From assembly GCA_022072445.1 (NCBI GenBank), contig JAJVHV010000004.1:62001-126000 (forward strand): 64,000 bases of DNA. The letters are read 5' to 3'. The translations under genes were made by a program, and so were the position numbers. The DNA is from Phycisphaerae bacterium (GTDB lineage Bacteria > Planctomycetota > Phycisphaerae > UBA1845 > Fen-1342). How positions within the stretch are numbered: position 1 is the first letter of the stretch; each line of letters opens with the position of its first letter. Shown piece by piece: positions 17,238-57,553 of the stretch. The notes beneath the pieces are model-generated. The model saw only the letters and a program-made list of their open reading frames with translations, searched no databases and had not been told where the DNA came from.

Positions 17238-17573
17238 TTACTTGCGGCGGGCTTCGCGGCCGTCGGGCAGCTTGTCCAGCCGCACGCGCGGCATGAGCAT
17301 CTGCACGCTGCGGCGGTTGTAATCGTAGCCGTAGACGATGCCCATCTTGGCGGCGGCGTCGATCACCAGCACGCCCTCGACCGACTGGTCGATCTGGTGC
17401 GTCAGCATGAGGTAGTCGCCGGCGCGGTCGTTCTGGCCCGAGGCCTGGGCCGTGGGCGCGTTGCCCATCAGAATCAGGCCGACGAACAGCACGCAAGCCG
17501 TCACGCTCAGGATCCCGATCGCGAACGACTTGCCATCCAGCGCGGTAGTGGCGGAGGGAGCGGCGGAGCGCAT
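17238..17573 (-). CDS. Small membrane-anchored protein, paralogue of the upstream gene
   Basis: This 111-residue protein has one N-terminal hydrophobic segment (FAIGILSVTACVLFVGLILMG) followed by a soluble domain. The domain shares a pattern with the neighbouring upstream protein: GDY followed by a strand, a VIDA element, YDYNRRSVQMLMPR and a Leu-rich end. The upstream protein has GNY, LIDL, YHDRGARQLEYGG and a similar end. The start is taken as the ATG at 17573, 4 nt after the upstream stop, and an extension to 17693 in the same frame lacks support. No known family was recognised. The context is an operon ending in moxR. It is probably exported with the domain outside the membrane. Confidence 0.7.
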   Translation of the reverse strand: MRSAAPSATTALDGKSFAIGILSVTACVLFVGLILMGNAPTAQASGQNDRAGDYLMLTHQIDQSVEGVLVIDAAAKMGIVYGYDYNRRSVQMLMPRVRLDKLPDGREARRK

Positions 17574-17577
17574 CGGA

Positions 17578-17874
17578 TCAGCCCTTTTCCTTATTGCGGA
17601 AATCGACCTCGAGGTTGCGATTGCCGCCGTATTCGAGCTGCCGCGCGCCCCGGTCGTGGTAGAGCACGTGCAGCATGCGCGTCTGAAGGTCAATCAGGTA
17701 GATGGCGTCGTAGCCGTCCTGCACTTCCCCGGCCACAACCATGTAGTTGCCGCTCAGACCTGCCCCCTGGGCATGCGCGGCGGGCAGCGAATAGCTGCCC
17801 AGCGCCAGCGTCGTCGCCAGAAGGAGATTCACGCAGACCAGCGCGGCAATGACCATCGACTTATCGAGTTTCAT
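17578..17874 (-). CDS. Small exported protein of the moxR operon
   Basis: The 98-residue protein has a signal peptide or membrane anchor (MVIAALVCVNLLLATTLALG) ending near PAAHA. A compact domain of about 60 residues follows (SGNYMVVAGEV, AIYLIDLQTRMLHVLYHDRG, LEVDFRNKEKG). It looks like a duplicated relative of the next gene downstream. The start ATG at 17874 has GGGAG nearby. Function is unknown; the short strand-turn-strand units with an IDLQT element recall a fragment of a propeller repeat, but this is a guess. It sits between the 72-residue membrane protein and its paralogue. Confidence 0.7.
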   Translation of the reverse strand: MKLDKSMVIAALVCVNLLLATTLALGSYSLPAAHAQGAGLSGNYMVVAGEVQDGYDAIYLIDLQTRMLHVLYHDRGARQLEYGGNRNLEVDFRNKEKG

Positions 17875-23732: not shown

Positions 23733-23839
23733 GATGTTCCTCGCTCGCTATTGACGGCTGACTGGCACGTCGACCGGTGCGTCCGACGGTCGCGTCGATC
23801 GCGCACGCAGAATCCGTGCCGGTATTCTCGCGGCCGCGT

Positions 23840-23857
23840 GTTAAGGTGGCGTTAACG
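23840..23857 (-). promoter_or_regulatory. PHO-box-like direct repeat upstream of pstS
   Basis: On the minus strand TTAACG, a 5 nt spacer (CCACC) and TTAACA form a direct repeat with an 11 nt period, about 110-125 nt upstream of pstS. The 11 nt period and the TTAACA unit resemble PhoP/PhoB-type boxes, which bind tandem response-regulator monomers. The placement is right for the operon, but only two units are visible. Confidence 0.45.
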
Positions 23858-23911
23858 AGCGGGGCGGCGGACCGAACGGCTGGAATCGCGCCCGGACGCC
23901 GCTCTTTCTCA

Positions 23912-23940
23912 TTGCCGCAGCCCCAAGCGACTGCTAGACT
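23912..23940 (+). promoter_or_regulatory. Predicted promoter of the TGA-containing redoxin gene
   Basis: TTGCCG (23912-23917), a 17 nt spacer and TAGACT (23935-23940) give a plausible sigma-70-type promoter. The expected start point near 23947 leaves a leader of about 30 nt before the ATG at 23978. Confidence 0.45.
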
Positions 23941-23952
23941 GCAAGTTGCAGT
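23938..23952. promoter_or_regulatory. Perfect 15 bp palindrome over the -10 and start point
   Basis: ACTGCAAGTTGCAGT has seven-base arms around a central G. It overlaps the predicted -10 hexamer and transcription start, where a repressor would act. The regulator is unknown. Confidence 0.45.
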
Positions 23953-23977
23953 GATTCCGACACCTATGGAGGACGTC

Positions 23978-24613
23978 ATGCGAAAGTTCATCCTCGCCCT
24001 GGGTGCATCATTGGCGCTGGCCGGGGTGGCCGGCGCGCAGCCGATGCAGCAGGAGCCGCTCCCCGAAGGAAAACCACCACCCAAGTGGTCCGTCACCGCG
24101 GTTCGCGACCTGAAAAAACCGGTGAAAATCGAGAACTTCCGCGGCAAGTGGCTGGTGGTCGAATTCTGGGGCTACTGGTGAGGGCCGTGCACGAGCGGCA
24201 GTTTGCCGCATTGGATGGAATTCTACGAAAAGCATAAGTCCGACCGCGACTACTTCGAGATCATCGCCTTTCACGAACCTTCCGCCAAGAACTTCGCGCA
24301 GCTCGACAAGTTCATGGCCAAGCTCGAAAAGGACAAGTGGGGCGGCAAGAAGCTCCCGTTCCCGATCGCGCTCGACTCCACCGGTGGCACGGTCAAGCGC
24401 TGGCGCGTGCCGGGATACCCGACGGTCGTGCTGATCGACCCGGACGGCAAAGTGGCCAAATACCAGGTCGGCCACAGCGACGATCTCTCGAAATTCCTCG
24501 AAACCAAACTCGAGGAAGCCAAGAAGTCCGGCCCGCCGAAGAAACCCGAAACCAAGCCCGACAAGCCTGAGCCGAAAGACGACGAGCCGGAAGACGTCGA
24601 GGTCAGTCCCTAG
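23978..24613 (+). CDS. Predicted selenoprotein: exported TlpA/thioredoxin-fold protein with UGPC active site (TGA read as Sec)
   Basis: Read through the in-frame TGA at 24179-24181, this is one 211-residue protein. It has a signal peptide (residues 1-20, ending AGVAGA) and a TlpA-like thioredoxin domain. The active site reads FWGYW-U68-G69-P70-C71. In TlpA-like proteins this position is Cys of CxxC, and the paralogue just downstream has FWGYWCAGC. The frame continues without other stops through the cis-Pro loop (VPGYPTVVLIDPDGKV) to a Lys/Pro/Glu-rich tail. The ATG at 23978 has GGAGG at 5 nt. A 6 bp hairpin follows the TGA at SECIS-like distance. The protein probably acts as a periplasmic thiol/selenol oxidoreductase. 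The alternative, a chance nonsense mutation, is much less likely because a second gene at 56.4 kb shows the same change. Confidence 0.8.
24179..24209 (+). promoter_or_regulatory. Sec UGA codon and putative bacterial SECIS hairpin
   Basis: The in-frame TGA (24179-24181) is followed by a perfect stem GCGGCA/TGCCGC (24195-24200 and 24204-24209) with loop GTT. The loop begins 19 nt after the TGA and starts with G. As known for bacterial SECIS elements, the hairpin lies within the coding region directly after the UGA, with a short loop carrying an early G. Confidence 0.6.
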
Positions 24614-24692
24614 CCGCCCTGCTGCGGCGTTCGAACATGCGATTGCGGCCCCGTTCGCAATGATCGAGCGGGGCCGCATGATTGGAGCCATG

Positions 24693-56413: not shown

Positions 56414-57553
56414 CTACGGTTTCGCCGCCGCGAATTGGGCTTCGACCGCCTGCTCAATCTGCTCGTGGCTCAGGAAGCCGCGCCTCACGATCTTGCCGGC
56501 TGGGTCGATGATGAAGATGGTCGGGTAGCCGTGGATGTTCCACTTCTTCGAAATCTTCGCGCCGTCCTTTTCACCGTGCGAACCCTCGACGATGTTCGGC
56601 CAGGTGACACCGTCCTTCTGGAATCTGGCTTTCAGACCGGACCGGCCTGAATCGCTGTTGATGCCGAGCAGAACGAATGGCTTGCTTTCGAGCTTCTTCA
56701 CCATTTCACGCTGCTGCGGCAACATCGCGACGCAACCGCCTCACCAGAACCCCCAGAAGTCGAGCACTATCACCTTTCCGCGGAAGTCCGACAGCTTGAT
56801 CGTCTTGCCGGCCAGGTCGGTGCCCTCGAAATCGGGCGCCTGCATCCCGACCTGCAGCTTCTCGATCTCGTAAATGTACGGCTCCGCCTGCGCCGCGGCC
56901 TTGGTTCCGGGGAAGTCCTTCAGCACCGTGCGGAATGTCTCGATCGCGCGGTCGCGGTCTTTCGGGTCGCGCTTCGCGCCGCCCTCCGCGTCGCCGGGCA
57001 TCTCGAACATGAACGGCTCGTAGAGCATGGCGGCGATGGAGAATGTCGCCCACGCTTTCGCCTCGGGGCTCGGGTTCCTTGCCTTCACCGCATCGAACAG
57101 CCGCCGCAGCGCCGCCTCACCCACCGTGTATTTCGCATAGCGCAGCGACTCGAGGTGCTCGGCGATGGATTCCTCTGCGGCGTGATTGTCGATGATCGTC
57201 TGAAGCGCGCGCGCGGCGTCGGAGTCCTTGGCGGGCTCGGTCGCGCCAGTCAGCATCATTGGTCGCTCGTTTTCGACCAGCCACACGAGCGGCGCGACGG
57301 CCGCGGGCGTGCCGGCGCGCTTCTCGGCCAGCGCCTTGAAGCGCGGGCGAAACTCGCGGACCGGAGCCGGCTCTTCATTCATGTTGAAGGCCGGCTTCTC
57401 CCCCTTCTCCTGCTGCGCCTTGAACTCGTCCCAGAATTTCGTCTGGGCCGCCTCAAACTCCTGACTCAGCTTGTCAAACTCCTCGTCGGCCCACCCAGCG
57501 GCCGGTAAGAGAAGCCCGACGAGCGTGGCCGTCAGCCATCTTCGTCGTCGCAT
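56414..57553 (-). CDS. Predicted selenoprotein: exported TlpA-like protein with UGGC active site (TGA read as Sec)
   Basis: Read through the TGA at 56743-56741, this is a 379-residue protein. It has a signal peptide (MRRRRWLTATLVGLLLPAAGWA) and a helical N-terminal region with a TPR-like stretch (RDRAIETFRTVLKDFPGTKAA). A C-terminal thioredoxin domain carries DFWGFW-U271-G-G-C274, then GINSDSG and the cis-Pro loop IHGYPTIFIIDPAGKIV. Conservation continues on both sides of the TGA without a frameshift. The active-site Cys position is exactly the recoded one, as in the gene at 24.0 kb. GGAG lies 8 nt upstream of the ATG at 57553. Two separate genes would be predicted if the TGA were taken as a stop, and neither would make sense alone. 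Probably a periplasmic redox protein. Confidence 0.8.
56708..56743 (-). promoter_or_regulatory. Sec UGA codon and putative SECIS hairpin
   Basis: The TGA (56743-56741) is followed on the minus strand by a 7 bp helix between nt 16-22 and 27-33 after the codon (56725-56708). It includes two G-U pairs and a CGCA loop. The loop starts 22 nt after the TGA and has G as second base. It is weaker than the hairpin in the first gene but within the known bacterial distance range. Confidence 0.45.

Follow-up and report, generated by a model that had tools for sequence, protein, structure and literature searches.

The window analysed here is a stretch of 64,000 nucleotides from a Phycisphaerae bacterium (contig JAJVHV010000004.1, positions 62,001 to 126,000), and it holds two genes in which a TGA codon falls within the frame of a TlpA-like redoxin, at the first residue of the predicted redox pair. 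Adjacent to the first of these lies a paralogue that carries cysteine (Cys) at this position. The features, with the evidence behind them, are as follows.

23978..24613, plus strand: gene 1, a predicted selenocysteine (Sec)-containing TlpA/ResA-like redoxin, export predicted (frame and translation, Pfam matches across the TGA, alignment, structure model)
23978..24037, plus strand: signal-peptide-like N-terminus of gene 1 (MRKFILALGASLALAGVAGA), from the translation judged by eye; a low-confidence region in the structure model
24179..24181, plus strand: in-frame TGA, predicted to encode Sec as the first residue of a UGPC active site (Cys or TGA in homologues; counts of TGA against TAA/TAG and TGY)
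24195..24209, plus strand, loop at 24201-24203: predicted upper stem-loop of a bacterial SECIS element (bSECIS), GCGGCA-GUU-UGCCGC (folding, family-wide selection, the constraints in PMC13188914)
24660..25784, plus strand: adjacent Cys paralogue, FWGYW-C-AGC, with a listed length of 374 aa and an N-terminal domain like CarboxypepD_reg
56414..57553, minus strand: gene 2, a second predicted Sec-TlpA of 379 aa, U271, FWGFW-U-GGC, with its TGA at 56743-56741 (clan A in the tree described below)

The frame of gene 1 opens with an ATG at 23978-23980, passes through the TGA at 24179-24181 and closes with a TAG at 24611-24613. Reading the TGA as Sec (U) gives a product of 211 residues with U at position 68 (MRKF...FWGYW-U-GPCTSGSLP...YPTVVLIDPDGK...VSP), in which the signal-like N-terminus and a redoxin domain are the only recognisable parts. 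The active-site pair is U68-G-P-C71, and the alignment places a conserved cis-proline (YPT) beyond it. Matches to Redoxin (PF08534, at 52.6 bits against a gathering score of 26.6) and to AhpC-TSA (PF00578) both span the TGA, in agreement with the initial annotation, which had put the codon at the first redox cysteine (FWGYW-TGA-GPC) with the fold intact on both sides. It had also warned that standard gene callers would split the gene, and calling with translation table 11 does return two ORFs, 23777-24181 and 24203-24613. When internal TGA codons of the window flanked on each side by 60 codons or more were scanned, none was convincing apart from the FWGxW-U sites of genes 1 and 2.

Taken alone, a TGA in one draft genome might reflect a nonsense mutation, or a TGC that was misread, with the downstream part of the gene decaying, and the relatives of gene 1 bear directly on this reading. 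Cysteine at the position of the TGA had been named as something to look for in homologues, and in the close homologues it is occupied by TGA or by a Cys codon: among the nearest relatives, from a set of 27 genomes in its family, TGA is found in L034 (FWGHW-TGA-GPC, 42% identity) and Cys at the codon of U68 twice in L033, in L035 and in the adjacent gene in L060. Across 114 genomes of the order, the DNA motif FWG[FYHL]W-x-G-x-C has TGA at the variable codon in 10 cases, TGC or TGT in 3, and TAA or TAG in none, and at least 117 DNA stretches bearing the motif with TGA turned up when 84,980 species genomes were scanned. This recurrence, set against the absence of TAA and TAG in the order, indicates that the in-frame TGA is more than chance. 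The matches fall on at least 116 contigs, of which 94 are assigned to Planctomycetota, 6 to Verrucomicrobiota, 5 to Armatimonadota, 2 to Acidobacteriota and 1 to Myxococcota, with 8 unplaced, counts that rest on the labels of metagenome assemblies in which binning errors are possible. All of the motif sites listed are in frame within TlpA/redoxin reading frames with the exception of L062, a pattern match out of context whose TGA is followed by just 6 codons and which was dropped; among the matches listed, wherever the frame's end is included, 99 codons or more lie between it and the TGA. That the gene is broken, or the TGA a sequencing error, is therefore a very improbable account of gene 1, given that the same codon is TGA in at least 116 contigs and again in gene 2, that the sequence past the TGA is conserved, and that codons in the putative SECIS loop are fixed in Sec genes only (see below). 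For the family as a whole, it is rejected on the recurrence of TGA, the lack of TAA or TAG and the conserved downstream sequence.

Two of the matches hold more than one site. On a metagenome contig labelled Acidobacteriota (L144, 6539-7999, minus strand), a pair of UGPC redoxin domains shares one frame, at a spacing of 341 codons and uninterrupted by any other stop, and this frame could possibly encode a double-Sec fusion protein. On the minus strand of L102, a UGPC site is followed 345 codons on, in the same frame, by FWGFW-U-PSC, a double site like that of L144.

In a tree of 76 domains, gene 1 falls in clan B, which has 18 members with Sec and 5 with Cys (support 100/99), and gene 2 in clan A, which comprises 32 Sec members (support 100/95). 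The domains were sampled by the Sec pattern, and because this sampling is biased to Sec the tree does not decide between Sec and Cys ancestry. Gene 2 has a long N-terminal part and is a distant relative of gene 1. In clan B homologues from elsewhere, a domain similar to CarboxypepD_reg is frequent at the N-terminus, and this is the architecture of the adjacent Cys paralogue.

The start codon of that paralogue may sit slightly downstream of the listed one. Inspection by eye found a GC-rich inverted repeat (GCGGCCCCG...CGGGGCCGC) at window positions 24643-24675 on the plus strand, between gene 1 and the paralogue, whose annotated start it overlaps; it may be a terminator or an attenuator, with the true start of the paralogue downstream. 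Elsewhere in the window, ARAGORN reported a tRNA-Asn of 96 nt at 17556-17651 (plus strand) whose anticodon, ATT, is unusual; it is possibly a false call.

The hairpin that follows the TGA of gene 1 has 6 bp and a GTT loop, starts 13 nt past the TGA and places its loop 19 nt past it, the same distances as had been given in the initial annotation. The constraints published for bSECIS elements are a loop of 3-9 nt, an upper stem of 4-16 bp, a G at loop position 1 or 2, a distance of 16-37 nt from the UGA and an MFE <= -7.5 (PMC13188914); gene 1 has a loop of 3 nt, a stem of 6 bp, G at the first loop position, a distance of 19 nt and -15.2 kcal/mol. The stability of this single upper stem is modestly above that of shuffles (z about -1.6), and since a search of the hairpin region against Rfam gave no SECIS family match, only a chance snoRNA hit, support was taken from a codon test across the family.

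Folding was assessed in 42-nt windows at 105 distinct Sec sites against synonymous-codon shuffles drawn within the same gene. In the folding window that starts two codons past the TGA, the mean folding z of the Sec genes is -1.83 +/- 0.14 and 72% of the genes score below -1, and in distant windows of the same genes z is near zero. The equivalent position in 25 Cys homologues, which are for the most part more distantly related, gives a z of -0.16 +/- 0.18. Base pairing of the clan B upper stem holds in 87 of 102 cells, mostly in the inner five pairs, against 29-49 when the stem is slid. The codons themselves tell a similar story, although the sequences are related and non-independent and no probability is attached to the counts. 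In clan B, the serine codon that supplies the last base of the stem and the first bases of the loop (A-GU) is AGT at all 17 Sec sites, as compared with 13 of 183 other serine codons (7%) in the same ORFs; it is AGC in the adjacent Cys paralogue and in both L033 Cys genes. The 44 clan A genes that encode PHERSLV have a GGUC loop 31 nt past the UGA, and use CGG in 44/44, TCG in 44/44 and CTC in 43/44. For gene 2, folds after the TGA are no more stable than shuffles, and no canonical bSECIS was found. The claim that a SECIS element lies directly after the UGA of gene 1 is thus supported, at the level of sequence, by a hairpin that is under selection in the family and that fits the bSECIS model.

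Insertion of Sec depends on the source genome having the means to decode UGA in this way, and absence of selA, selB or selC had been named as evidence that would count against the prediction. In the genome (5.25 Mb, 96.7% complete), all of these were found together with selD: a tRNA-Sec (selC) with anticodon TCA (Rfam score 67.1 bits), a SelB of 694 aa with EF-Tu GTPase, SelB barrel and winged-helix domains, SelA (548 bits) and SelD (375 bits). The SelD gene (G000:C37:1133-2059, L028) itself has an in-frame TGA at the catalytic position, in CAGUAGK, which fits the UxxK motif given for Sec-SelD (PMC13188914), and its product is probably a selenoprotein too. TGA serves as an ordinary stop for genes that sequence reading identifies as PstS, PstC, PstA, PhoU, an S1-like gene and SelB, and this, with the sel genes present, indicates that the code is standard and that Sec decoding is available. 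A UGA reassigned genome-wide, for instance to Trp or Gly, or one that is simply leaky, with no Sec involved, would also let the frame of gene 1 continue. No evidence for either was found, U68 aligns with Cys and not with Trp or Gly, and the ordinary TGA stops lead us to reject genome-wide reassignment; any such explanation has very little chance of being correct. Strong tRNA-Sec matches occur in most genomes of the order, so that their co-occurrence with the motif is uninformative, and were missing in two motif-bearing genomes (82% and 62% complete).

A model of gene 1 was built with AlphaFold2 from an 18-row alignment, with Sec modelled as Cys. It has a mean pLDDT of 88 and a thioredoxin fold in which U68 lies just before a helix at 69-85. 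Model and alignment together give the features of a TlpA/ResA-like protein, a thioredoxin fold in which (C/U)xxC opens helix 1, together with a cis-proline, and the best PDB folds are ResA-like, DsbE-like, DipZ, StoA and CcmG. Several Sec redoxins are peroxidases, and the Pfam Redoxin and AhpC-TSA matches would suit a protein in which Sec is inserted and which acts as an exported peroxiredoxin-like peroxidase, not as a disulfide reductase. We consider this unlikely, in view of the TlpA/ResA-type placement of UxxC at the N-terminus of helix 1, the YPT cis-proline and the ResA, DsbE-like and CcmG proteins at the top of the structural matches; moreover, the TxxU/TxxC motif listed for Prx (PMC13188914) is absent from the gene 1 product.

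The sequence evidence that the in-frame UGA of gene 1 is a Sec codon is strong, and the initial annotation's reading of UGPC as a Sec active site in a redoxin draws support from the sel genes, the TGA and Cys homologues and the selection on the hairpin alike. We put at about 93% the probability that gene 1 encodes an exported TlpA/ResA-like thiol:disulfide oxidoreductase with Sec as the attacking residue of the CxxC pair and a UGA read through SelB and the stem-loop, a reading in which read-through, export and the reductant role are predicted. SelB carrying Sec-tRNA(Sec) would bind the stem-loop just past the UGA, whose apical loop begins with GU 19 nt downstream, and the UGA would then be read as Sec and not as a stop. 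The mature protein would act outside the cytoplasm, with Sec as the attacking nucleophile of the UxxC pair. Most likely it reduces exported disulfides and is itself recharged through a membrane transporter of the DsbD type, a role suggested by the signal-like N-terminus, by a DsbD homologue in the source genome with a C-terminal domain bearing CxxC, and by a cytochrome c assembly gene near selB.

A selenoprotein group found mostly in Planctomycetota is well supported, and its genes are broken at the active site by standard gene calling. Two sets of fixed loop codons, AGU in clan B and CGG-UCG in those clan A genes that encode PHERSLV, offer a simple means of telling a Sec gene from a Cys paralogue, and a Sec/Cys pair of neighbours in one genome is a natural system in which to ask why some exported redoxins keep selenium. 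More doubtful is a wider proposal, that the FWGxW-U-Gx-C clans centred on Planctomycetota are undescribed, Sec-dominated lineages of exported TlpA proteins, tandem double-Sec fusions included, in which selection on the loop fixes codons and from which the Cys paralogues of clan B, the neighbour of gene 1 among them, arose when Sec was lost. That planctomycetes have selenoproteins is known in general terms (PMC4807772); a limited search of partial literature found no paper on clans A and B or on such a planctomycete group.

Among characterised elements, the SECIS of E. coli fdhF resembles the gene 1 hairpin in the position of its loop (18 nt past the UGA, 19 in gene 1), in the loop itself (GGUC, GUU in gene 1) and in a UGCA/UGCC-type upper stem, and differs in having a loop of 4 nt, not 3, and in its lower stem. 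The protein shares its fold, the position of CxxC and the cis-proline with the Cys oxidoreductases ResA, StoA, TlpA and DsbE-CcmG (best PDB matches 4nmu, 3gl3 and 1st9), but has Sec at the attacking position. NCBIfam scores fall below the curated cut-offs for ResA (62.1 against 170 bits), StoA (50.5 against 210) and TlpA (27.7 against 230), so that gene 1 is like these proteins and an orthologue of none. No NCBIfam model scored above its own cut-off for gene 1 or gene 2, and PHROGs gave no match. The ResA-like family NF041054 ('ResA-like WAxxUGC motif-containing protein', WAxxUGC_long) has UGC in its name, whereas gene 1 has UGPC; with a cut-off of 300 bits, it gave no hit to gene 1 and only 36.1 bits for gene 2. 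Closer in kind are the UxxC selenoproteins in Table 1 of a 2026 inventory, a 'Redoxin family protein' (PF08534) and a 'Thiol-disulfide isomerase-like protein' (cd02966) (PMC13188914), which have the same domains and a single Sec that opens the UxxC motif, and which are likened to clans A and B by description only. Similarly, the GOS Trx-like 1, Prx-like 1 and Prx-like 3 selenoproteins of a marine metagenome survey (PMC2398784) are UxxC thioredoxin-fold proteins assigned to COG0526, pfam00578 and, weakly, pfam08534; they are marine metagenome clusters, and their likeness to gene 1 is one of description, not sequence by sequence. Gene 1 therefore belongs to a kind of selenoprotein that has been recognised before, the UxxC redoxin/TlpA proteins.
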